Source: Lysobacteraceae bacterium
GTDB taxonomy: Bacteria > Pseudomonadota > Gammaproteobacteria > Nevskiales > Nevskiaceae
Assembly (NCBI GenBank): GCA_013823855.1
Contig: PNMW01000011.1
Span: 1-64,000, forward strand
Direction: 5' to 3'
DNA length: 64,000 nt
The notes beneath the pieces were generated by a model. It was not told the DNA's origin, did no database searches, and saw only the letters and a program-made list of their open reading frames with translations. How positions within the stretch are numbered: position 1 is the first letter of the stretch; each line of letters opens with the position of its first letter. The translations under genes were made by a program, and so were the position numbers. Positions 3,672 through 26,756 of the stretch are shown one piece after another.

Positions 3672-4391
3672 ATGGCCCACTACGTCCTGATCCACGGTGC
3701 CTGGCACGGCGGCTGGTGCTGGCGCGAGGTTGCGAAGATCCTGCGCGCGCAGGGCCACACGGTGTTCACGCCGACCCTGACCGGCAATGGCGAATCGCGC
3801 CATCTCGGCGGCGAGCGCATCACCCTGGAAACCCATACCCGCGACGTGCTCGGGCTGATCGCGGCCGAGGAACTGGACGAGGCGATCCTCGTCGGCCACT
3901 CCTACGGCGGCATGGTGATCACCTCGGCCGCCGATCGCGTCGCGTCGAAGATCCAGCGGCTGGTCTATCTCGATGCCTTCGTGCCGACCCATGGCGAGAA
4001 TCTCGTCGACTGCATCCGCCGCAACCTGCCTGCGGAAGCGGCGGCGATCTTCATCGGCCACTTCCATCAGGCGCGCCACAACGACGGCCTGATTCCGCCG
4101 ATTCCCGGTGCGCTGTTCGGCCAGACGCCGGCCACTACCGCGTGGATGGAGCGGCAGTGCAACGCCCAGTCGCTGGCGACCTTCCAGTGGCCGGTGCTGC
4201 TGACCGGCGCGGCCGACGCGATTCCCCGCAGCTACATCGTCGCCAACGACTGGCAGCCGAGCCCGTTCCAGGCCGAGGCCGCGCGCTATGACGGCGCCGC
4301 CGGCTGGACGCTCGATCGCCTGCCCGGCGGTCACTGCCTGATGATGGACAGCCCGGCCGAGCTGTCGGCCCTGTTCGCGAAGCTGGCCTGA
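3672..4391 (+). CDS. Alpha/beta hydrolase, possible salicylate-ester esterase
   Basis: The 239-residue alpha/beta hydrolase has the oxyanion-loop motif HGAWHGGW near the N-terminus, the nucleophile elbow GHSYGG with Ser77, and a C-terminal His221 in LPGGHCLMM. Asp182 (LTGAADA) is the likely acid. The N-terminal pattern and the short lidded fold resemble the plant methylesterase/hydroxynitrile lyase-like group, which includes methyl-salicylate esterases. It sits between the fumarylpyruvate hydrolase and the salicylate hydroxylase genes, which suggests an entry step for an ester or amide of salicylate. The family is clear; the substrate is inference. Confidence 0.8.
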   Translation: MAHYVLIHGAWHGGWCWREVAKILRAQGHTVFTPTLTGNGESRHLGGERITLETHTRDVLGLIAAEELDEAILVGHSYGGMVITSAADRVASKIQRLVYLDAFVPTHGENLVDCIRRNLPAEAAAIFIGHFHQARHNDGLIPPIPGALFGQTPATTAWMERQCNAQSLATFQWPVLLTGAADAIPRSYIVANDWQPSPFQAEAARYDGAAGWTLDRLPGGHCLMMDSPAELSALFAKLA

Positions 4392-16205: not shown

Positions 16206-19103
16206 TCAGCGCCGCAGCAGCCCCAGCCCCGAGCAGGTGTTGTCCTCGGTATCCGCGGTCGGCAGCACGTCGTCGATCCACCGGGTGATCAGCGCCGCCG
16301 CCTCGCCGTGGGTGACGCTGCGCGCCACCGGCGGCATCCGCACGCCGGCCTCCGCCGAGCCGACCCGGAACGGCAGGATCGAGGTGCCGGCATTGCGCGG
16401 CACGATGTCGTAGCGGCGGCCTTCGCCGGAACCGCGACCGGCGGCGATCGGCCGCTTGCAGATGCCGTAGCGCACGTCGACCGGCCGGGACGCGTCGAGG
16501 AACAGGCCGGAGTTGGCGGCCGAGCCACCGCCCGAATGGCAGTGCACGCAGTTCACTTCCAGATAAGCGCGGACCCGCTTGTGGAGGTCCTGATCCGAGC
16601 CCGGCAGCGCGCCGGCATCACCCGGCACGTTGAAGCGCGGCAGCCGTTCGATGCGGGCCAGATCGGCCGGCAGGCCGCTCAGCAGGCCACGCTGACTCAG
16701 GTACTGCAGCTGGTTCTGGGTCGTGCCATCCGGGTAGCGGTGCGCCTTGTTCAGGTTGCGCGCCTTCGGGCCGATCGGCGCGGCGCCGGCTTCGCGATCG
16801 TCGTTGCCGTGGCAGGTCACGCAGCTCAGCGCGGCCGGGATCGTGTAGCGCGGCACGGCGCCGGTGTAGCGCAGCCGCTGGCCCTTGGCATCGACCACTT
16901 CCGGATCAGGGTCGACGTAGTCGTAGCGGACACTGGCGGTGCCGCCTTCGACATGCAGTTCGGCGATCCGCCCGCCACCGCTCGCGGTGCGCCAGATGTA
17001 CGGCAGGCCGACCCAGGTCGGCCCGGTCGCGGTCTGGCGGCGGATCAGCAGGCGGGTTTCGACGACGTTCTCGGTGCTGCCGGACTTGAACGAGAAGGTC
17101 TTGGCGATCACCGTGCCGACCGGGAAATCGAACGTGGCAACGACGCCGTGGCTGGCCTGGTCGCGGTACTGCGCCGGCTGGCCGTCGGGAATGAACAGGA
17201 AGCGGTACTTGGTCGAATAGTCGCTGAACAGCGCCGTGTTCAGGTCGTACTCGACGCCCTGCACCGGGTTGGCGCGCGGATCGGCCGGGTTGGCGAACAG
17301 GCCGTACTGATCGAGACGCGGGCAGTTGTAGGCGAGCGCGGCGCGATTGACCTGCCCGGGACGGCCGCCGTTGCAGGCGGCCCGCACTTCGGCTTCGGAC
17401 GGACGACGGTCGCCATTGGCCGGGTCCGGCACGAACGGCAGCTGCAGGTTCGGCCCCGGACGTGCCGGCAGCGAGCAGCGGTGTGGCGCCAGGCTGGTCG
17501 ACGCCGGCTTCAGCAGGTCGAGCGCCAGCTGGCCCGGTTCGCTGGTGGTCAGCCTGGCATTGACGAACGGTGTGGCGAACGCGGTCAGCAGGCGGGTGTT
17601 CGAGAACTGGTTGTCGTCGGCGATGCACAGGCCGTTTTCCGGCAGCTTGAGCTGGCCGGCGGCATTGAACTTCCAGGCATTGAAACGCTTGCCGCCGCAG
17701 TTCGGGCCGGGATCGGTCGGGCCGTAGTTCGGCCGGCCGCGCTCGTCGGCGCGCGCTTCGCTGCGGCCGGTCTCGCTCGGGTTCGGCTGGTTCAGCGGCA
17801 CGCCGCTGGCGTCCTTCGGATACTCGGTGCAGCCGTTCGGGGCATCGACGCCGCCATCCCAGACGATGTGCGCCGAGCGGCCGAGGTTCTTCAGCTTGAT
17901 CAGCAGCGGCAGCAGCGAGGCCTCGCCGCGCTGCGGTGTTGGCAACTGGATGGTGCCGCCGTTGTCGCGGAAGCGGTTGCCGTGGATCTCGATGCCTTCC
18001 GGGTGGAAGTCGTAGCGCAGGTCCGCCTCGTTCGGATCGATCAGGCCGTAATTGACGATGCCGATGCCCATCGTGTCGTGGTCGCTGATCTCGTTGTCGA
18101 CGATCTCGAGCTGGTCCGAGGCCAGCACCAGCATGCCGGTGCCCTTCGGCACGCTGCCGACGATGTTCCCGGCGGGGGCAAAGTTCGGGAAGTTGTTGTT
18201 GAAGGCGCGGTTGCGGTGCACCCGGTTCTTCTCGCCGTACTGGGCCAGGCCCGGCAGGTCGAAGATCAGGAAGCCGCCGGTGTTGTTGGTGGCGATGTTG
18301 TCGACGAACTCGGCGCGGTAGGTGTTCTCGAACTCGAAGCCGGCAACGTTGTATTCGGCGCGGGTGCGGCGAACGATGACGTCCGAGGTCTGGCCGACGT
18401 AGATGCCGGCGTCGGAGGCGCCGAAGGCTTCGGAATCCTCGATCAGCACGTGCTGGCAGAGCACCGGGTAGAGGCCGTAGGCGCCATGCCGGGTGCAGGA
18501 GTTCGGGGCGTCGAGCCGGGTCGAGCAGGTCTTGTAGTCGGACCAGCTGGCACGGACGTCCCGAAACGTCACGAAGCGGCTGCGGAACACGCGGATCGAG
18601 TTGCCCGGCGTGTCCTCGACGGTGAAGCCCTGCATGACGATGCCGTCGGCATGGCTGACATTCAGGCCTTCGGCGGCATCGGAACTGGCGAAGTTGAGGA
18701 TCGTCCTGTCCTTGCCCGCGCCCTTGATGGTGATGCCGCGCTTGTTGTTCATGATCAGCCCGGTCGACAGGCTGAAGCGGCCGGCGCAGAAGGCGATCGT
18801 GTCGCCTTCGCGGGCGTCGAAGAACGCGGTCAGCGCTTCCGTGGTCGCGTTCGGACCCGGGCAGATCTTGTAGGTGCGCGTGGCGGGCGCCGGCGTTGCG
18901 GCGGCGGTCTTCGTCGAGGGGGCAGCAACCGCAGTGGCGGCGCTGCCGCTCGCCGCTTCGGTCGGAGCGGCCGGCTCGGGCGCGGCGAACGCGGTTGTCG
19001 GCAGCAAGCTTGCGGGTTCACCGCAAGCCGACAGCAAGGCCGTGGCGACGGCGAGCACGGCGAGCAGGCCGATGCGGCATCGGCCGAAGGTGTGGCGGGT
19101 CAT
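16206..19103 (-). CDS. Fusion lipoprotein: parallel beta-helix domain plus SO2930-type diheme cytochrome c
   Basis: The 965-residue protein has a lipoprotein signal (LLSACG, Cys27), then a right-handed beta-helix region at about 70-430 with repeats such as GLIMNNKRGITIKGAGKDRT and NSIRVFRSRFVTFRDV. From about 550 it has a diheme cytochrome module with CXXCH motifs SCVTCH (about 760) and NCVHCH (about 850). In other genomes these two parts are usually separate neighbouring genes (the TIGR03805/TIGR03806-type pair, from memory). Here they are one frame. The start at 19103 has AGGGAG eight bases upstream; an ATG 36 bases earlier lacks the site. It is likely an electron-transfer or polymer-acting envelope protein; substrate unknown. 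Confidence 0.85.
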   Translation of the reverse strand: MTRHTFGRCRIGLLAVLAVATALLSACGEPASLLPTTAFAAPEPAAPTEAASGSAATAVAAPSTKTAAATPAPATRTYKICPGPNATTEALTAFFDAREGDTIAFCAGRFSLSTGLIMNNKRGITIKGAGKDRTILNFASSDAAEGLNVSHADGIVMQGFTVEDTPGNSIRVFRSRFVTFRDVRASWSDYKTCSTRLDAPNSCTRHGAYGLYPVLCQHVLIEDSEAFGASDAGIYVGQTSDVIVRRTRAEYNVAGFEFENTYRAEFVDNIATNNTGGFLIFDLPGLAQYGEKNRVHRNRAFNNNFPNFAPAGNIVGSVPKGTGMLVLASDQLEIVDNEISDHDTMGIGIVNYGLIDPNEADLRYDFHPEGIEIHGNRFRDNGGTIQLPTPQRGEASLLPLLIKLKNLGRSAHIVWDGGVDAPNGCTEYPKDASGVPLNQPNPSETGRSEARADERGRPNYGPTDPGPNCGGKRFNAWKFNAAGQLKLPENGLCIADDNQFSNTRLLTAFATPFVNARLTTSEPGQLALDLLKPASTSLAPHRCSLPARPGPNLQLPFVPDPANGDRRPSEAEVRAACNGGRPGQVNRAALAYNCPRLDQYGLFANPADPRANPVQGVEYDLNTALFSDYSTKYRFLFIPDGQPAQYRDQASHGVVATFDFPVGTVIAKTFSFKSGSTENVVETRLLIRRQTATGPTWVGLPYIWRTASGGGRIAELHVEGGTASVRYDYVDPDPEVVDAKGQRLRYTGAVPRYTIPAALSCVTCHGNDDREAGAAPIGPKARNLNKAHRYPDGTTQNQLQYLSQRGLLSGLPADLARIERLPRFNVPGDAGALPGSDQDLHKRVRAYLEVNCVHCHSGGGSAANSGLFLDASRPVDVRYGICKRPIAAGRGSGEGRRYDIVPRNAGTSILPFRVGSAEAGVRMPPVARSVTHGEAAALITRWIDDVLPTADTEDNTCSGLGLLRR

Positions 19104-19235
19104 GCGTTTCTCCCTGGGGCCATCTCGTTCGGATGGCACTTGTTGTCATGGGCCCGATCGTCGCGCGCGACGACGATCAGCCCAATGGTAAATACGACCC
19201 GCGGGGTGACGCTGACGCGCCGGAGAACCCCCTGT

Positions 19236-20543
19236 TCAGCGCGCCGCGCGGCAGGCGGCGTAGACCTGCGCCGCGCTGTCGCCGGCCAGCGACCGGGCGG
19301 TGAACAGCGCGCGCGGGCAGGTGGTGGCCTGCGGGCTGTAGTCACCCAGCACCGTCTGTGGCGATGCCCCCGGCGGGACCGAGGTGATGGCGCCGCCGAA
19401 GCCGGGCCGGCTCAGCAGCTGGCGATAGATCAGGAAGCCATTGTCGACCAGGCCAGCGTTCGGCAGGTAAGAAAAGCCATGCCTCGCGTCGGCACCGGGC
19501 GGACGGCCGCCGAAATCGCCGATCACGGCATGGAAGAAGCCGCTGGCATCGATGATGGCATCGCGGTCGGCGACGCAGGCGATCACCGTCTGCAGCAGCT
19601 GGCGGTTCTGGCACAGCGACCAGTAACGGACTTCGGGCACCACCGGACCGCGCAGCGCCGGGAAGCTGGGCGCCCGGAAGCGGACCAGCACCAGTTCGTT
19701 GCGGTTTTCGATCCGCGCCGACATGAAGCCGGCGTCCTGGTTGTAGACGACCCCGCTGCCGAGCACGCGGCTGGGCCGGTAGACCTCGAAGGGCACGTCG
19801 CGGCCCGGCGCGGCTGGCAGCGGGCTGCCGGCCTGCTGTCCGCCGAGTCGCAACGCCGGTAGCGGACCATCGTCGTTCACCGCCGTCCGCCGCAGCTTGA
19901 GGCTCGGCGGCTGGCTGCCGTCGGCGCAGGCGCTGCGCTCGATCGGGCTGTCCTGCGCCGGGCTGCCATCGTCGCGCTCGTAGCGGATCACCGGCAACGG
20001 CACCACACCGTTCGACAGGTAGGCGCGCAGGAACAGGTAGTTGCGGCCGATCGGCAGCGCCGAGGCGCCGGCGTACAAGGTGTTCGGCGCCGGGTGGGCC
20101 GGCCTGTCGGCGAACACTACGTACACCGTGTACTGGCCGCCCGGGCGGATCGCGGGGTCGATCCGGGTGATGCCGGTCAGCGGCGACTGGCTGCCCGGGT
20201 TCGGCTGGATCCGGTGATCGGAGAGGACATCGATGGCATTGAACGCCGAGCCGTACAACTGATACGAGAAATAGCGCGCCGCCAGGTAATGGCCGTCGAT
20301 GCGCAGCCGCAGGCCGCGCGTGCGGCTGCGCGGCAGGGCCAGCCGGAAATAGCGCGCATGGGTTTCCGGGTAGGCGGTATTGCCGTCCGGCTCGGTCCAG
20401 TCGCAGCTGCTGTCGGATGCCGGCGGGCCGGCTGCATCCGCCGGCAGGGCGGTGGCGCCGGAAGATTGGAATGACGACAGGCCCAGCAGCACCGCCAGCG
20501 TGAAGACGCGGACCGGCCATTGTGGAAACAGGATGGAAAACAC
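19236..20543 (-). CDS. Secreted protein of unknown function
   Basis: The 435-residue protein has a signal peptide (VRVFTLAVLLGLSSFQSSGATA) and is predicted to be periplasmic or secreted. I do not recognise a characterised family. Features seen are an N-terminal beta-rich domain (LRLRIDGHYLAARYFSYQLY, then NAIDVLSDHRIQPNPGSQSP), an SLCQNRQLLQTVIACVADRD segment with two cysteines, and a second cysteine pair near the C-terminus. The GTG at 20543 has GGAG nine bases upstream; an earlier in-frame start would add an Arg-rich stretch before the signal. It lies 132 bp upstream of the beta-helix cytochrome gene on the same strand. Confidence 0.65.
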   Translation of the reverse strand: MFSILFPQWPVRVFTLAVLLGLSSFQSSGATALPADAAGPPASDSSCDWTEPDGNTAYPETHARYFRLALPRSRTRGLRLRIDGHYLAARYFSYQLYGSAFNAIDVLSDHRIQPNPGSQSPLTGITRIDPAIRPGGQYTVYVVFADRPAHPAPNTLYAGASALPIGRNYLFLRAYLSNGVVPLPVIRYERDDGSPAQDSPIERSACADGSQPPSLKLRRTAVNDDGPLPALRLGGQQAGSPLPAAPGRDVPFEVYRPSRVLGSGVVYNQDAGFMSARIENRNELVLVRFRAPSFPALRGPVVPEVRYWSLCQNRQLLQTVIACVADRDAIIDASGFFHAVIGDFGGRPPGADARHGFSYLPNAGLVDNGFLIYRQLLSRPGFGGAITSVPPGASPQTVLGDYSPQATTCPRALFTARSLAGDSAAQVYAACRAAR

Positions 20544-20939
20544 GTGAACTCGCTCCGGAAATCGGTTCCGGACATTACTTTCACGTGGAAAAGCGTTTTC
20601 TATCTTCGGGAAATATGGATATCTTCGGATTGAAGACAAAAGGCTCGACGAGCGGTCGCGACGATCCGCACGATCATCGGCGGTCTTTCCGGAAGCTCCG
20701 TCCCGGGCTTCAATTTGATATCAACACCATGTATTGATTGATATTTATTTCTTTATACTTTCTGGTCTGCAGATCGGTTCGGTATCCGGATCTTTGCTCA
20801 GCGCTTCGGGTTCCGAAGCACGCTGCTGACAAAGTCTAAGGAAATAGGGATTTTCACGACGATGAATCTTCGATTATTCCATGATCGGTTATTTCGTCAT
20901 GTTTTCTTTGATCGGCGACAGCCTGCGCAGGCCTGCCGG
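20544..20939. other. AT-rich intergenic region with direct and inverted repeats
   Basis: No convincing gene lies here. The stretch 20700-20780 is far richer in A+T than the rest of the window. Seen are two 9-bp direct repeats TATCTTCGG (20601-20609 and 20620-20628), a 10-bp palindrome TTGATATCAA (20715-20724), and an inverted repeat GCTTCGG-GTT-CCGAAGC (20803-20819). It should carry the promoter of the leftward secreted-protein gene; the hairpin may end or attenuate the DUF1111 transcript coming from the right, but it lacks a T run. Confidence 0.5.
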
Positions 20940-22166
20940 TCAGCGTCCCTCGACCCAGCGGATCAGCAGGGCGCGGGCAGTGGCGGTCTGCTTCTCGAAC
21001 GCCGCCCGTGCCGCGCTGGCCTCGCCGCCGTGCCAGAGAATCGCTTCCTCGACGCTGGCGGCACGGCCGTCATGCAGCAACAGCAGCGGCGCCTTGGCGC
21101 GGGCTGCGGCAAGGCCCCAGAGCGGCGCCGTGCGGAAGCGTGTCGGTTGCGGGCGGTCGGCGAGATCGCGGTCGGCCAGCCCGGGCCCGAGGTCATGGCT
21201 GCGCAGGTCGCTCCATGCGGTGATCGTGTCGAGTCCGGCGATGCCGTCGACCGGCAACTGCACGACATGACAGCCGCTGCAGCCGGTGTCGATGAACAGC
21301 GCGCGGCCTGCCGCTTCCGCGTCCGCAGCCAGCGGCGCTTCGGCCGGCACCGGCAGCGAGCGTTGCAGTGCCAGCACGGCGTCGAAATCGCGGTCGGCAA
21401 CCTCTGGCACGCCGCCGTTCGCGGCTTCGAGGCAGGCGCGGTCACCGGTGCCGCAGTCGGGCTGTGGTCGCAGGCGGCTGGTGATGCCCATCTCGTGGGC
21501 GTAGGCGATCGCCGTCTGCTCGGCCAGGCTCGGCACCGCCGCCTGCCAGCCGAAGCGACCGGGTGACGGCAGCCGCGCCGCCTCGATCAGCGCCATGCCG
21601 AAGACCGGCGGCGCGATCCGCGGCCGGATCACGGTGCCGGCCGGCAGCCGCGCCCGGGCCACGGCATCGATCGGGTAGCGCGGCCGTCGCAGCCGCCACG
21701 GCTGGCCGTCCGGATAGCGGCCGTCGAGGTGATCGAACCGCAGCGTGGCGCGGCCCTCGACCGCTACGCCGGGCAGTGCCTGGGCGTTGAGCACCGCGCC
21801 GTACGGTGATGCGTTCGCGGTGCCGCTCGCCGTGCCGAGCTGGATCACCAGCGGCAGCGGTGCCGGTCCGTCGACGATCGGGCCGCGGGCCCGATGGCCG
21901 GAGTTGTGGCAGGCGTCGCAGCTTGCGGCGTTGTAGACCGGCCCGAGTCCGTCGATGGCTGCGGCACCCTCGGTGCCGGCCGCGACGTGATCGGTGTTGA
22001 ACAGCGCCAGCCCGCGGTCGCGCAGCCGGCGCGCCTCGGCGTCGAGCGGCAGCAGCGCCGCTTCCGGATCGCCGCTGCCGGTGAAGGCGACGCGGGGCGT
22101 CGGCGCCGCGGCCGCCAGCAACGGGATCGCCGCCAGCAGCAGCGGCCACGCGGCCGGTCGGCTCAC
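20940..22166 (-). CDS. DUF1111 di-heme oxidoreductase-like protein
   Basis: The 408-residue periplasmic protein has a signal peptide (WPLLLAAIPLLAAAAP) and two c-type heme sites, SCDACHNSG (about residue 85) and GCSGCHVVQ (about residue 295). The segments GLGPVYNAASC and IAPPVFGMALIEAA match the DUF1111/DHOR family. Family members are commonly found beside metal or porphyrin uptake genes; the reaction is not known. The start overlaps the stop of the 177-residue gene by four bases, so it is part of the receptor operon. Confidence 0.86.
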   Translation of the reverse strand: MSRPAAWPLLLAAIPLLAAAAPTPRVAFTGSGDPEAALLPLDAEARRLRDRGLALFNTDHVAAGTEGAAAIDGLGPVYNAASCDACHNSGHRARGPIVDGPAPLPLVIQLGTASGTANASPYGAVLNAQALPGVAVEGRATLRFDHLDGRYPDGQPWRLRRPRYPIDAVARARLPAGTVIRPRIAPPVFGMALIEAARLPSPGRFGWQAAVPSLAEQTAIAYAHEMGITSRLRPQPDCGTGDRACLEAANGGVPEVADRDFDAVLALQRSLPVPAEAPLAADAEAAGRALFIDTGCSGCHVVQLPVDGIAGLDTITAWSDLRSHDLGPGLADRDLADRPQPTRFRTAPLWGLAAARAKAPLLLLHDGRAASVEEAILWHGGEASAARAAFEKQTATARALLIRWVEGR

Positions 22167-22696
22167 GGCTCCGGCGTCACCGTGACGCGAACCGTGCTGT
22201 CGACGGCGCCGCTGAACTGCAGCAGCAGCGGCCGCCCGCCGGGCAAGCGGTAGCGGACCAGCTTGCGCGGCGCGGCACAGCCGCTGGCGCCGTGGAAATC
22301 GAGCGACGGCAGCAGGGTGGCGCCGTCGACGACATCGATCCAGTGCGCCGACGACAGCGCGACGCGGTACTCGCCGTCGCTCGGCACCGTGAAACGCAGC
22401 AGCCCGCCATGCGCGCCATCGGCCAGCCTGGGCTTGGCCGGCGGCCGCGCGTAATTGACCGTGTCCTGCGCCGGCAGGCGCACAACGGCCAGTTGTGCCG
22501 GCAGCAGCGGGGCCGCCGATGCGGCGTCGCGCCCGGCATCGAGCGCCTTGCCGGCGCCGGCGAACAGGGCGCGTTCGGCGCTGACGTTCCAGCGGAAGGC
22601 CTGACAGCCGTCGCCGGCCGGCTCCTGCGCCGATGCCGGTGACCCCATCGCCAGCGCCAGCAGCGACAGCCCCAGCCGCGCCAGCAGCGGCATCAT
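22163..22696 (-). CDS. Periplasmic protein of unknown function, partner of the TonB receptor
   Basis: The 177-residue protein has a signal peptide (ARLGLSLLALAMGSPASA) and a mature part with cysteines near both ends (DGCQAFRWNVS and ASGCAAPRKLV). The rest looks beta-rich (EYRVALSSAHWIDVVDG). I recognise no characterised domain. The start is ATGATG overlapping the receptor stop, and the stop overlaps the DUF1111 start, so the three genes are tightly coupled. A periplasmic binding or handling role for whatever the receptor brings in is a reasonable guess only. Confidence 0.7.
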   Translation of the reverse strand: MMPLLARLGLSLLALAMGSPASAQEPAGDGCQAFRWNVSAERALFAGAGKALDAGRDAASAAPLLPAQLAVVRLPAQDTVNYARPPAKPRLADGAHGGLLRFTVPSDGEYRVALSSAHWIDVVDGATLLPSLDFHGASGCAAPRKLVRYRLPGGRPLLLQFSGAVDSTVRVTVTPEP

Positions 22697-24765
22697 CGCG
22701 CCGCTCCGGATGCCCGGAAGCGCCAGTCGAGCTGGACCAGCCAGGTGCGGCCCGGCTCGAAGAAGCCTTCCTGGTAGGCGTACTTCTGGTCGGCCAGATT
22801 GCGCACGCCGGCTTCGACGCCGAGGCCGGCCACGGACGGCGGCTCGTAGCGCAGGAAACTGTTCAGCAGCGTGTAGCCGTTGGCGTAACGGGCGCCGTCG
22901 GTGGTCGACCAGCGGCGCGTCTCGTACTGGCCCTCGAACTTGCCGGTGACGCCGGCCAGCGGTGTCCAGCGCAGGCCGAGCCGGTATTTCTGTTCCGGCG
23001 TGTCGAGCTGGCGCAGTTCCGGCCGGCTGCGGTTGTCGCGATCGAGGAGGGTCGCCTGGGCATCGAGCTTCAGCCTGTCCAGCGCCTGCCAGCCGAGCGC
23101 CAGCTCGGCGCCGCGATTGCGCTGCTCGCCGACGTTCTGCAGCTGGAAGCAGGTCGGATTCGGCGCGCTGCACTGGCTGGCGGGAATAGTGACGTTCTCG
23201 ATCGCCTCGTCGAGATCGCTCTGGAACAGCGTCGCTTCCAGTTCCCAGCGGCCGCGCTGCTCGCGCCAGCCGAACTCGTAGTTCCAGGCCGATTCCGGCG
23301 CCAGCTGGGCGTTGGGGATTGCCGAGCCGAGGCGGAACGAATAGCGGTCCTTGATCGTCGGGAAGCGGGTCTTGCGGCTGAAGCCGGCGGTCAGCCGGCC
23401 GCTGGCGGTGGCCGCGACTTCGAGCACCAGCTGGGCGTTCTGCGCGTCGGCGCGGCCGGGCGGGAAGCGGGTGACCGTGCCGTTCGACAGGTTGTCGGCG
23501 CGCAGGCCGCGCTGCACCGACCAGCCGTACGATGGCGTGATCGTCACCCGCTCGGTTAGCCGCCAGCCGTGCTCGACGGCGACCGCGCCGCTCAAGTCCT
23601 CGTAGCGTTCCTGCGGCAGCCCGACAGCGTCGCGCTCGCGGTGCACGTCCTGCTTGCCGTGCACGGCGATGCGGGTGGCGTGGTCCGGACTCCAGCGCCA
23701 CTCGAAGTCGGCGTTGCCGCCGTAGGTGAAGTCGCTGTAGGCGCTGTCCTGGAACGCGAACGGCCGCGTGAAGCTGTTGTAGCTGGCGTTGTCGTAGCTC
23801 GACAGGCTGTTGCGGAACGTGTCGTGGTAGACCCGGGTGCGCAGGGTTGCCCGGTCATCGAACAGGCCGTTGCGGGTCGACAGGTAGAAGCTTTGCTTGT
23901 CCCAGTACGGCCAGCGCCAGAAGCGCGCCTGCACGCCCGGCGCGCGGCCGGCATACGGCGGCGAATCCTTCTGGCCGTCCTGCCGGTAGTAGGCCAGCGC
24001 GATCTCGTCGTCGCGGCCGTAGGCGTAGCCGAGTTTGGCGGCGATCGTCTGGTCGCCGCTGCCGCTGTTCTCGCGCCGGCCGCCGTCCTCGTTGGCGGTC
24101 GGCTTGAAGCTGTCGGGCAGCGCGTAGCCGCCGGATTCGAAGTACGAGTAGGTGGCGTGCGCGTACCAGGCGCCGCTGCGGCCGCCGACGCTTGCCGTGG
24201 CCCGCGAGGCCAGCGTGCCGCCGGCTTCGCCCTGCTCGAACTGGCTGGCGGCGCGCACTTCGAGCGGCGCCACCGGCTTGCGGCTGATCACGTTGATCGC
24301 CCCGCCGAGCACGTTCGGTCCGTAGAGCAGTGAGGCCAGGCCCTTGCCGACGACGATCTCGGACACGTAATCGACGCCGAAGCGGCTGAAGTCGACATTG
24401 CCGTCGTACGGCACGTAGACCGGCACGCCGTCGATGAACAGCGGCACCTGCCGGGAGCTGAAGCCGCGCACCGCGATCAGCCGCTCGCGGCGCTGGCCGA
24501 CGTTCTGCAGGTGCACGCCGGGCAGCAGGCCGATCGCTTCCGACAGATCGTCGCGATGCCAGGTCTGGATGTCCTCGGCGCTGACCGTGTCGGCCGGCGT
24601 CAGGATCGGCGAGCGCGCGCCGCGCACTTCGACGACGCCCAGCGAGAACACCGGAGTGGAAGTGTCCGCCTCCGGACTGACGTCATCCGCCGCGACCGCC
24701 AGGCTGGCCAGCACCAGCAGGCCAAGTCCACCCATCGCCGCCGCCCGGCATGTCTGGATTCCCAT
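22693..24765 (-). CDS. TonB-dependent outer-membrane receptor
   Basis: The 690-residue protein has a signal peptide, a plug domain (about 45-165, with SEAIGLLPGVHLQNVGQRRE, IAVRGFSSRQVPLFIDGVPV and GPNVLGGAINVI) and a 22-strand barrel ending in LVQLDWRF. It should import a substrate across the outer membrane using TonB energy. The substrate is unknown. A ModE-like half-site lies 37 bp upstream of the start, between it and the modE-like gene, and two periplasmic proteins follow with overlapping frames. The start at 24765 has GGAGA six bases upstream. Confidence 0.9.
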   Translation of the reverse strand: MGIQTCRAAAMGGLGLLVLASLAVAADDVSPEADTSTPVFSLGVVEVRGARSPILTPADTVSAEDIQTWHRDDLSEAIGLLPGVHLQNVGQRRERLIAVRGFSSRQVPLFIDGVPVYVPYDGNVDFSRFGVDYVSEIVVGKGLASLLYGPNVLGGAINVISRKPVAPLEVRAASQFEQGEAGGTLASRATASVGGRSGAWYAHATYSYFESGGYALPDSFKPTANEDGGRRENSGSGDQTIAAKLGYAYGRDDEIALAYYRQDGQKDSPPYAGRAPGVQARFWRWPYWDKQSFYLSTRNGLFDDRATLRTRVYHDTFRNSLSSYDNASYNSFTRPFAFQDSAYSDFTYGGNADFEWRWSPDHATRIAVHGKQDVHRERDAVGLPQERYEDLSGAVAVEHGWRLTERVTITPSYGWSVQRGLRADNLSNGTVTRFPPGRADAQNAQLVLEVAATASGRLTAGFSRKTRFPTIKDRYSFRLGSAIPNAQLAPESAWNYEFGWREQRGRWELEATLFQSDLDEAIENVTIPASQCSAPNPTCFQLQNVGEQRNRGAELALGWQALDRLKLDAQATLLDRDNRSRPELRQLDTPEQKYRLGLRWTPLAGVTGKFEGQYETRRWSTTDGARYANGYTLLNSFLRYEPPSVAGLGVEAGVRNLADQKYAYQEGFFEPGRTWLVQLDWRFRASGAAR

Positions 24766-24801
24766 CGCAATTCTCCGTCATTTGTTTTATGATGATAAAA
24801 G

Positions 24802-24812
24802 TATATAACGAT
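24802..24812. promoter_or_regulatory. Candidate ModE half-site upstream of the TonB receptor
   Basis: TATATAACGAT matches one half of the published ModE box (TATATAACGAT after a six-base spacer) at all 11 positions. The opposite half is poor. It lies in an AT-rich 91-bp gap between the modE-like stop and the receptor start, where a promoter would be expected. Binding is inferred. Confidence 0.5.
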
Positions 24813-24856
24813 GGAATAGCGTCAGACGGGAACGCAGGCCAGCAGCGGCGGCCTGA

Positions 24857-25648
24857 TCAGCCGAGACGGACGAGGATGACGCTGGCGGCGGAGAATAGCG
24901 CCCGCGCCGGGCCGCCACGGGCGAGGCCGAGGCGTTCGATCGCTTCGATCGTGACCACGGCGACCAGAGTCTGGCCGCCGGCCAGCTCGAGCACCACTTC
25001 GCCGTTGACCGCGCCGCGGTCGATCCGGCGCACCGCGCCGTCGAGCTGGTTCTCCGCCGAGCAGCCGCCGGTGCTGGCATCACCGGGCGTGGCCAGCATC
25101 AGCCACGGGGCCTTGATCAGCGCGGTGACCGGAATGCCCGGCGCCAGCGCCATCGCGCGGGTGCTTTCCCGGGTGATGGTTGCCACCAGCGGCTGGCCAC
25201 CGGCGAGTTCGATGACGATGCGGTCGTTGACGGCTCCGGCGTCGACCGCCCGCACCCTGCCGGCCAGCTGGTTGCGGGCGCTGCTCAGCATCGTCAGGCG
25301 GCCGAGCACCGGCAGGTCGCGCGCGGCGTTGGCATGCGATTCGGCGATCCGGGTGGCCATCGCCTGCTGCTCGGCGCGCAGCCGTTCGTAGAGCGCCAGC
25401 AGTTCGGTGCCGCGAGCGGTCAGTACGGTGCCGCCGCCGCGCCGGCCGCCGGTCTGCCGGTGCACCAGCGGCGCATCGGCAGCGTTGTTCAGCGCGTCGA
25501 TGGCATCCCAGGCGCCCTTGTAGGACATGCCGACCGCTTTCGCGGCCTGCGAGATCGAGCCGGCCCCGGCGATCGCCTGCAGCAGCGCGAAGCGCCGGCG
25601 CGTCGCCGGCGATTCGCTGAGCGCGCGCAGCAGATCGGCGTCGGTCAT
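24857..25648 (-). CDS. modE: ModE-type molybdate-responsive transcriptional regulator
   Basis: The 263-residue protein has an N-terminal winged helix-turn-helix (GAGSISQAAKAVGMSYKGAW, about 24-43) and two C-terminal Mop/TOBE domains that bind molybdate: about 124-190 (SARNQLAGRVRAVDAG) and 197-263 (SAENQLDGAVRRIDRG). This is the full-length ModE layout. ModE with molybdate usually represses modABC and activates molybdoenzyme genes, but no modABC is near. It lies 22 bp after the propeller gene and 91 bp before the receptor gene, same strand. Start at 25648 gives the family's usual length. Confidence 0.88.
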   Translation of the reverse strand: MTDADLLRALSESPATRRRFALLQAIAGAGSISQAAKAVGMSYKGAWDAIDALNNAADAPLVHRQTGGRRGGGTVLTARGTELLALYERLRAEQQAMATRIAESHANAARDLPVLGRLTMLSSARNQLAGRVRAVDAGAVNDRIVIELAGGQPLVATITRESTRAMALAPGIPVTALIKAPWLMLATPGDASTGGCSAENQLDGAVRRIDRGAVNGEVVLELAGGQTLVAVVTIEAIERLGLARGGPARALFSAASVILVRLG

Positions 25649-25670
25649 CGGGCGCGGCGCCGGCAGCCGC

Positions 25671-26756
25671 TCACGGCACCACAGGCTCGGCCAGCGGCGA
25701 GGCGGTGTCGTTGACGAACACCTTGAGCACCTGGAAGTGGTTCGGCAGCAGCAGCCCGGTGGCGAACGCGTGGTTGGTGACCAGCGCATTGCCGAGGCCG
25801 TCGAAGGCCAGGTTGGCCGGCGAATCGAACGGCTTGAACAGGTTCAGGCCCGGGTTCCGGATCCGCGCGAACTCGCTGCCATCCGGATTCAGCACCGAAA
25901 TGCCGTTCTGGCCCGGCAGCGCCAGCACCACGTAGAGCTTGCCGCTGGCGCCGAAGGCGATGCCGTCCGGTGCGCCGGCGAAATAGCGGTGGAATTCGAC
26001 CAGGTCGCGGGCCGCCGGCTTGTCGACCAGCGGCAGGCTGTAGACGTGGCCGATGCCGAGGAAATCGAGCGTCACCGTGAAGTAGATGCGGCTGCGATCG
26101 GGCGAGATGCGCAGGCCGTTGACGCCGACATACGGCGACGACAGCCGTGTGTCCTGGAACCAGATCCTTGGCGTGCCGCCGCCGGCCGGCACCTTCCAGA
26201 TCGTCGCCTGCAGGCTGTCGGTGACGTAGAGATTGCCGGCGTCGTCGAAGGCCAGGTCATTGGGCAGCGCCGGCAGGTTCGGGACCGTCGGCGAGCACGG
26301 TGCGCGATTCAGGATCGAGCAGGACTTGAGGTTCGGGTACGGCGGCGTGTAGCGGGCCTGCACGCCGGTGACCAGGTCGAGCCGGAAGGTGCCGAGCTGG
26401 TTGTTCAGCACGTACAGGCGGCCGGCGCCATCGAAGGTCAGGCAGGAATTGGCGTGCTCGGCGCCGAACACCTGCTCGCCCTGGGTTTCGAGGGTGCGCA
26501 GCAAGGCGCCGGTGGCGAGGTCGTACTCGAAGACCCGCGACGGCTTGCCGTTGAATACGGTGCCGAGGGTGGCCGGCCCGGCGACGTAGAAGCGATTGCC
26601 GCGCACCGCGATGCCTTCCGGGAAGCCGTTCGGGATCGGCACCTGGGCGAGCACCGAAACCTCGCCGTACTGGGCCGCGCCAGCCGGCAGGGCGCCGAGA
26701 ACCGCGCTGGCCGCCAGCAGGGCCGCGCGGGCAAGCAGTGTGAGTCGGGATGTCAT
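25671..26756 (-). CDS. Secreted beta-propeller protein (SMP-30/NHL-like)
   Basis: The 361-residue protein has a signal peptide (LLARAALLAASAVLGALPAGA) followed by about six blades of an NHL/SMP-30-like propeller, with repeats such as NGFPEGIAVRGNRFYVAGPA, PNDLAFDDAGNLYVTDS and PANLAFDGLGNALVTNHA. Propellers of this type may be lactonases or binding scaffolds; no catalytic residues can be assigned with confidence. The second of two ATGs (26756) has AGGAG eight bases upstream. It is the first gene of the leftward run that includes modE and the receptor. Confidence 0.75.
   Translation of the reverse strand: MTSRLTLLARAALLAASAVLGALPAGAAQYGEVSVLAQVPIPNGFPEGIAVRGNRFYVAGPATLGTVFNGKPSRVFEYDLATGALLRTLETQGEQVFGAEHANSCLTFDGAGRLYVLNNQLGTFRLDLVTGVQARYTPPYPNLKSCSILNRAPCSPTVPNLPALPNDLAFDDAGNLYVTDSLQATIWKVPAGGGTPRIWFQDTRLSSPYVGVNGLRISPDRSRIYFTVTLDFLGIGHVYSLPLVDKPAARDLVEFHRYFAGAPDGIAFGASGKLYVVLALPGQNGISVLNPDGSEFARIRNPGLNLFKPFDSPANLAFDGLGNALVTNHAFATGLLLPNHFQVLKVFVNDTASPLAEPVVP

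Follow-up and report, generated by a model that had tools for sequence, protein, structure and literature searches.

A family of ModE-linked TonB-dependent receptors with a probable role in molybdenum or tungsten uptake

Introduction

Which gene does a molybdate-responsive regulator control when no molybdate transporter is encoded nearby and the gene directly after it encodes a TonB-dependent receptor (TBDR)? The question is raised by a gene cluster in a 64,000-nucleotide stretch of DNA, here called the window, from a Lysobacteraceae bacterium that GTDB places in the Nevskiaceae (NCBI GenBank assembly GCA_013823855.1, contig PNMW01000011.1, positions 1 to 64,000; 68.7% G+C). To our knowledge, the passage of scarce molybdenum (Mo) or tungsten (W), or of chelated Mo, over the outer membrane of Gram-negative bacteria is largely unexplained. 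An earlier note on this DNA, made from the sequence alone, had suggested that a ModE-type regulator governs the receptor and that the receptor takes up molybdate, tungstate or a carrier-bound form. Our comparative genomic results support this suggestion, and do so well beyond the window. We estimate the probability that the locus is a ModE-controlled TonB-dependent uptake system for Mo and/or W at roughly 0.78.

The locus and its ModE half-site

All genes of the cluster lie on the minus strand, in the order SMP-30-like gene, modE, TBDR gene, P2 gene and DHOR gene. The modE gene (24857 to 25648) encodes a molybdate-responsive regulator of 263 amino acids with profile matches to a helix-turn-helix (HTH) and two TOBE/Mop domains, and is separated by 91 bp from the receptor gene (22693 to 24765; 690 amino acids, plug and barrel profiles). 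After the receptor come the genes of P2 (22163 to 22696), a small exported protein of 177 amino acids without a known family, defined as an open reading frame (ORF) and by tblastn in relatives, and of DHOR (20940 to 22166), a di-haem oxidoreductase and putative peroxidase of 408 amino acids. Each of these two genes begins with a 4-bp overlap of the stop codon before it, ATGA between receptor and P2 and GTGA between P2 and DHOR, and both proteins are exported. No modA, modB or tupA homologue was found in the window by tblastn, and genome profile searches gave no match to a ModC-type ATPase, PF00384 or PF20256 within it; the sole window match in the ModC-directed search is the Mop part of the locus ModE. 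The gene arrangement described in the earlier note, including its remark that neither modABC nor a molybdoenzyme is near, is therefore confirmed.

The 91-bp gap contains the ModE half-site TATATAACGAT (ATCGTTATATA on the gene strand) at 24802 to 24812, an exact match at all 11 positions as first noted. Counted from the first base of the receptor start codon, it reaches from 37 bp (near end) to 47 bp (far end). It is the only match in the window when up to one mismatch is allowed, where shuffled sequences lead to an expectation of 0.03. By base composition, about 1e-6 copies of the 11-mer are expected in the gap. Its 9-base core occurs once in the own genome, counting both strands, and the reversed control not at all; this single occurrence is unremarkable alone because about two are expected per genome, while the expectation for the 91-bp gap is about 5e-5. 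The half-site and its placement are real and unlikely to be due to chance. The window promoter combines this one perfect half-site with a weak second half. Chance as the full explanation of the half-site was considered and rejected, in view of its placement and of the full boxes at homologous promoters described below.

ModE boxes upstream of related receptors

The earlier note had proposed to look for ModE boxes upstream of TonB receptors with the same neighbours. Upstream of homologous receptors such boxes are frequent. One contig scan kept 80 receptor loci of 328 relatives (loci, genomes and contigs are cited by our own numbers, beginning with L, G and C). The loci span Pseudomonadota, Bacteroidota and Verrucomicrobiota, and their hosts include Nevskiales-type bacteria, Pseudomonas, Methylophaga, Burkholderiales, Gallionella, Verrucomicrobiaceae, Flavobacterium, Spirosoma, Fibrisoma and Chitinophagaceae. 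The full box, CGNTATATA-N6-TATATANCG, was scored over 16 positions at N6 in 78 of the 80 loci, leaving out L035, which has no upstream sequence, and L038, a second copy from the L037 genome. With a score of at least 14/16 we find 35 boxes in the 32,685 bp upstream of receptors (24/78 loci) and 9 in the remaining 1,003,494 bp of locus sequence, which is mostly coding. Observed upstream boxes at scores of at least 14, 13 and 12 number 35, 47 and 61, compared with 0.00, 0.15 and 1.70 in 20 dinucleotide-shuffled sets of the same upstream regions. Counted by loci, 36/78 have an upstream box of at least 12/16 (1.60 in shuffles) and 24/78 one of at least 14/16 (0.00). Six of the nine outside boxes sit just upstream of tupA (in three Methylophaga loci), modA, modE or P2-DHOR; the divergent P2-DHOR pair of Hydrocarboniphaga effusa, for instance, has its own upstream ModE box.

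Where else in a genome is the box found? We searched 19 genomes for it with at most two mismatches. These genomes were chosen mostly for a good receptor-promoter box, so the search shows which other genes carry boxes and not how frequent boxes at receptors are. The 50 sites fall at family receptors (20), modA or modE (13), P2-DHOR (2) and elsewhere or at unassigned places (15); G114, G115 and G116 have none. All 17 sites of six genomes (G100, G101, G102, G103, G107 and G108) lie at the receptor (9), modA (6, at most 339 bp ahead of the ModA profile match) or P2-DHOR (2), and the reversed pattern has 2 sites in these six genomes, both in G107. The receptor and modA share such boxes. In G106 and G109 some sites are near TetR- or LysR-like ORFs, which were named by eye.

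Loci chosen blind to boxes and neighbours were obtained from a draw of 299 genomes of the phylum. At least seven, the own genome included, have the receptor at an E-value of 1e-90 or better, a lower bound since at most four candidates per genome were scored. Three of the six other loci have a ModE- or TupA-type neighbour: L207 with a ModE HTH neighbour and an upstream box of 13, L209 with a ModE neighbour and an upstream box of 14, and L208 with a TupA-like neighbour only. The box of L207 is letter for letter that of L040; the two are probably closely related, and L207 is then not fully independent. The only link in L210 is a 12/16 box 229 bp upstream, and in L212 a 16/16 box that is 4.6 kb upstream.

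Among 100 genomes searched for close relatives (own included), 13 have the receptor at an E-value of 1e-40 or better, and all 13 have a ModA over the cut-off. The order modE-receptor-P2-DHOR is found in L002, L003, L004 and L005, and receptor-P2-DHOR is visible in L006, where a contig end cuts off the remainder. Good palindromic boxes are found 5' of the receptor in L003 (two), L007 (judged by eye), L008, L011 and L012, and poorer ones upstream of it in L009 and L010; L002 has a half-site identical to that of the window. In G049 and G057 the receptor has modA as its divergent neighbour, the two matches being 577 and 690 bases apart. Conservation of the half-site where the cluster is kept, which the earlier note made a test of its idea, is seen in part: the 90% relative keeps it and Sinimarinibacterium flocculans has two full ModE boxes at the receptor promoter, while it is weak in two congeners. 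Degenerate ModE sites seem usual in this genus, because the boxes at the strong modA promoters of congeners are imperfect as well (12-13/18).

Neighbouring genes and control loci

A homologue of modA, modB, modE, ModE-HTH, Mop or tupA lies within about 6 kb of the receptor in 47/80 loci (tblastn). In this neighbour survey a box of at least 12 is present in 37/80 loci, and 69/80 have a mod- or tup-type gene or such a box. Forty TBDR loci of eight of the same genomes served as a control; they were hand-picked among the PF07715 matches listed and are mostly below 900 amino acids. Two of them belong to the family and were therefore set apart, and three regions are shortened by contig ends. A mod or tup homologue is found in 0/38 of the other TBDR loci and a MauG-type gene in 1/38; boxes anywhere in the stretch occur in 0 loci at a score of 14, in 1 at 13 and in 5 at 12. 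The receptor score separates the groups: the two members reach 424 and 428 bits and the other 38 at most 81. Both set-apart members are mod-linked and neither has a box of at least 13, and the family receptors of the same eight genomes (L048, L058, L063, L075, L103, L105, L111 and L112) each have a mod or tup gene or a box.

Ten recurrent neighbour families were named by profile. The most frequent ORF clusters are DHOR (31 loci), a protein of the Oxidored_molyb fold (30) and an SBP_bac_6-type solute-binding protein (SBP3, 29); this last count is by ORF clusters, as tblastn counts for it are inflated by spurious matches inside the receptor gene. They are followed by ModE HTH without Mop (23), an ABC ATPase (19), ModA (15) and a MauG/MbnH-like di-haem enzyme (11), and by the smaller clusters ModB (9), ModE (8, six with HTH and two Mop-only), Mop (7) and TupA (3). 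Housekeeping genes also recur and are common to the Flavobacterium loci. With NCBIfam, 15/15 ModA-cluster proteins match modA models and 29/31 ModE-cluster proteins match the ModE-HTH model, the other two being Mop-only. By tblastn, a gene for a di-haem enzyme of DHOR or MauG type is present in 50/80 loci and P2 in 9/80.

The place after the receptor is taken by P2 in Nevskiales-type bacteria and Alloalcanivorax, by a solute-binding protein in many Pseudomonadota, and by the Oxidored_molyb-fold protein in Bacteroidota. Since they hold a similar place, the arrangement suggests that the three are interchangeable partners. Of the aligned Oxidored_molyb-fold partners that were inspected, four (L084, L092, L096 and L105) lack the Cys motif.

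The ModE protein and the molybdenum genes of the genome

The locus ModE is a divergent member of the ModE regulators, judged by its profile scores and alignment. Its HTH scores 97.1 bits with TIGR00637 in the protein search (cut-off 98.5) and 99.2 bits, over the cut-off, in the genome search; Mop TIGR00638 gives 123.5 bits in two stretches (cut-off 55), and Pfam also finds the TOBE domain in two stretches. Residues 15-261 align to E. coli ModE (1o7l, E 3e-41), with retention of the SARNQ and KAPW motifs, which we take to have a role in oxyanion binding. Against the E. coli-type equivalog PRK10676 the protein scores 184.2 bits, below the cut-off of 369.

The assembly of the own genome has 3.87 Mb in 87 contigs and is 88% complete. 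PF00384 is found at 5 places and PF20256 at 3 places in 2 reading frames, and because of these molybdoenzyme genes the organism has a use for the metal. The profile search of this genome gave no ModC over the cut-off and a single, weak ModA match (73.4 bits, contig C23). Four congeners (G002, G005, G010 and G013) have one strong and one weak ModA match each, so the 12% missing from the assembly may contain the strong ModA locus. A second ModE-like gene on C27 was set aside: it encodes an HTH followed by an apparent periplasmic-binding-type domain, an ORF judged by eye, and stands beside an MFS gene.

Receptor, P2 and DHOR proteins

The receptor matches Plug PF07715 (65.4 bits) and the barrel PF00593 (98.2 bits), both over the cut-off, and its AlphaFold2 model (mean pLDDT 85.0, pTM 0.85) has a plug and, by manual count, 22 barrel strands. 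All 25 named TBDR models listed for it (BtuB, PqqU, CirA, FepA and others) score below the NCBIfam cut-off. We aligned 44 receptors, namely 43 of the 80 database receptors and that of the window (alignment A2); another alignment (A1) omits the L005 (G010) receptor for the internal stops in its frame. Invariant residues among the 44 include R231, K266, W283, W285, H375, R467 and K472. By strand order, in our own reading of the model, these residues are predicted to lie at outer loops or outer strand ends.

P2 has no match to a Pfam or NCBIfam family and no profile match among solved structures. Its model, built with nine sequences (mean pLDDT 79.9), is a small beta-sandwich with low-similarity matches to PPC/collagen-binding beta-sandwich domains (best E 3e-4). 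DHOR matches PF06537 with 115.5 bits and has CXXCH motifs, as of c-type haem, at residues 83 and 296; it has no solved relative at E 0.01, and the window protein has no match to TIGR04039 (MbnH).

Interpretation and alternative explanations

ModE very probably controls the neighbouring receptor. This link is supported because the boxes concentrate upstream of receptors, because the neighbours are mod and tup genes, and because the sites of the six genomes all lie at the receptor, modA or P2-DHOR. The idea of regulated outer-membrane uptake of Mo or W gains from the same boxes and six-genome sites and from the linkage in 47/80 loci compared with 0/38 in the controls. The Mo-loaded form of E. 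coli ModE is a repressor. By analogy, Mo-loaded ModE would bind the receptor promoter when molybdate is plentiful and repress the TBDR-P2-DHOR operon, and when molybdate is scarce the repression would lift and the operon would be expressed. The receptor would then carry a Mo or W species over the outer membrane using TonB energy. In the periplasm, P2, or elsewhere the solute-binding or molybdopterin-fold protein, might handle this species together with the di-haem enzyme, and ModABC or TupABC would complete import.

Several observations weigh against this interpretation. The second half-site at the window promoter is poor (2/9 at spacer N6, 4/9 at best, at N8), and no sigma-70-like promoter was found at the 91-bp gap. 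The 11-mer is intact in the 90% relative, but with 12 mismatches spread over the 91 bp it would escape by chance with p of about 0.19, and this conservation is not significant alone. Upstream of the receptor, L004 (by eye) and L005 have weak ModE sites; in the congeners G002 and G010, the latter the source of L005, only a weak site is found, and Solimonas aquatica (L013, L090) has none. In the search of 19 genomes, the 50 sites, found in 16 of them, compare with 23 for the reversed pattern. L211 of the phylum draw has SBP3-DHOR only, with no molybdenum link, and neither a box of at least 12 nor a mod gene is found in 11/80 loci. Flavobacterium contributes 25/80 loci and 23/47 of the linked ones, and of the remaining loci 24/55 are linked (manual count). 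In 18 of the 25 Flavobacterium loci (L049 to L098) the ModE protein near the receptor is a short HTH protein without Mop domains, and by manual count none of the 25 has a box of at least 12.

Might the half-site of the own species be a chance AT-rich promoter element and modE a mere neighbour, even if the family is ModE-controlled elsewhere? The missing second half-site and the weak sites of two congeners point in this direction, as does the expectation of about two 9-base cores in such a genome. We nevertheless consider it quite improbable, as the one occurrence of the core falls in the 91-bp gap after modE, at a chance of about 5e-5, and the boxes of the congeners' strong modA promoters are similarly imperfect. 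A different doubt concerns the cargo. By profile, the solved proteins nearest to the receptor are CirA, BtuB and receptors for catecholate siderophores, and the receptor could import another metal complex, such as an iron-catecholate siderophore, with ModE coupling its uptake to Mo status since such chelators bind molybdate. This appears unlikely to us: the recurrent neighbours are modABC, modE and tupA, boxes stand at both receptor and modA, and no siderophore synthesis family was recognised among the recurrent neighbours, in a search that named only ten of their families by profile.

If the cargo is Mo or W, as we favour, its chemical form has to be considered, and the periplasmic partners point to no particular ligand. 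The receptor might import molybdate or tungstate as the free oxyanion, at very low concentrations and without an organic carrier, like other metal-specific TonB receptors. Its occurrence near modA and tupA in different lineages and the invariant basic residues R231, K266, R467 and K472 at predicted outer loops or strand ends make this a serious possibility, if one that falls short of an even chance, but the frequent di-haem enzyme (50/80 loci) would be unexplained and small anions are generally known to pass porins as well. We suggest more tentatively, and would not be surprised to be wrong, that the receptor family is a widespread importer of organically bound Mo or W, as a molybdophore or Mo-pterin, and that the di-haem enzyme oxidatively frees or remodels the metal before ModABC or TupABC takes over.

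Relation to known systems

Among the nearest known relations is the ModE-modABC regulon of the E. coli type. Its box consensus is given as ATCGNTATATA-N6-TATATANCGAT (PMC545781), and regulator family and box consensus are the same. The difference is in the target, which here is the operon of an outer-membrane TonB receptor with a di-haem enzyme and not an inner-membrane ABC transporter. MnoT for manganese and OprC for copper are described as TonB receptors induced when one metal is low (PMC8602904). They share with our locus an outer-membrane TonB receptor tied to the scarcity of one metal; here the regulator is ModE and the linked metal Mo or W. The same paper presents ModA-IcmP of the Pseudomonas aeruginosa H2-T6SS as a proposed dedicated outer-membrane partner for molybdate (PMC8602904). 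As described there, IcmP is an insulin-cleaving metalloproteinase and not a TonB receptor as in our locus. Pfam finds no imelysin, the family to which IcmP belongs, among the cluster genes of the window. The methanobactin system pairs the di-haem enzyme MbnH with its partner MbnP and is concerned with copper. The Bacteroidota version of our locus resembles it in having a di-haem MauG/MbnH-like enzyme near the TonB receptor. However, the one Flavobacterium enzyme tested scores 271.4 bits with TIGR04039, below the MbnH cut-off of 362.85, and the window has DHOR instead, with a P2 that matches no family.

Metal-specific TonB uptake under a metal regulator is thus already known, and as far as we found the form with ModE and Mo or W has not been described. 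A full-text search by titles and abstracts found no published ModE-controlled or molybdate/tungstate TonB receptor; most subscription journals and the regulon databases lie outside its coverage, and an earlier prediction may exist. The ModE-linked TonB receptor family in relatives of Solimonas, Pseudomonas, Methylophaga, Herminiimonas, Flavobacterium and Spirosoma now provides named genes for study. If our interpretation is true, Mo and W join the metals with dedicated TonB receptors and an orphan di-haem enzyme family gains a role, with a bearing on nitrate use, nitrogen fixation and competition for trace metals.

Other observations

Some related loci show arrangements of their own. Hydrocarboniphaga effusa has two copies of the receptor cluster (L037 and L038) on a single contig, separated by about 200 kb; in both, the P2-DHOR pair is oppositely oriented and has a ModE box upstream of it. 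In three Methylophaga loci (L058, L065 and L069; about 5.0-8.0 kb in each locus) tupA, for a tungstate-binding protein, is directly upstream of the receptor, ModE-like boxes precede both tupA and the receptor, and modA lies downstream of DHOR. In the L107 genome (L153, L154) a second family-like receptor precedes a TupA-like gene, two modE genes and modAB, together with four box sites; elsewhere in it a TonB receptor gene of another type has a 14/16 box just upstream. Box-like sites at 3575 in L147 and at 4164 and 4201 in L151, from the L080 and L086 genomes, stand upstream of a similar TetR-like gene (by eye), which is possibly a further ModE target. The matched frame of the L005/L036 receptor copy is interrupted by internal stop codons, which may reflect a sequencing frameshift or a decaying gene.

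The SMP-30/NHL-type beta-propeller protein, recognised by profile, is encoded at 25671 to 26756, 22 bp upstream of modE and inside the interval of the earlier note. The gene is present in only 2/80 homologous loci (tblastn), for which reason it was set aside as a part of the uptake system; it is probably accessory and confined to close relatives. On the other side of the cluster, a 467-residue protein without a Pfam or NCBIfam match (19236 to 20639) comes after a 977-residue protein (16206 to 19139). The latter has a parallel beta-helix domain (TIGR03805, over the cut-off) and an SO2930-type di-haem cytochrome domain that scores 287.8 bits with TIGR03806, where the cut-off is 313.3.

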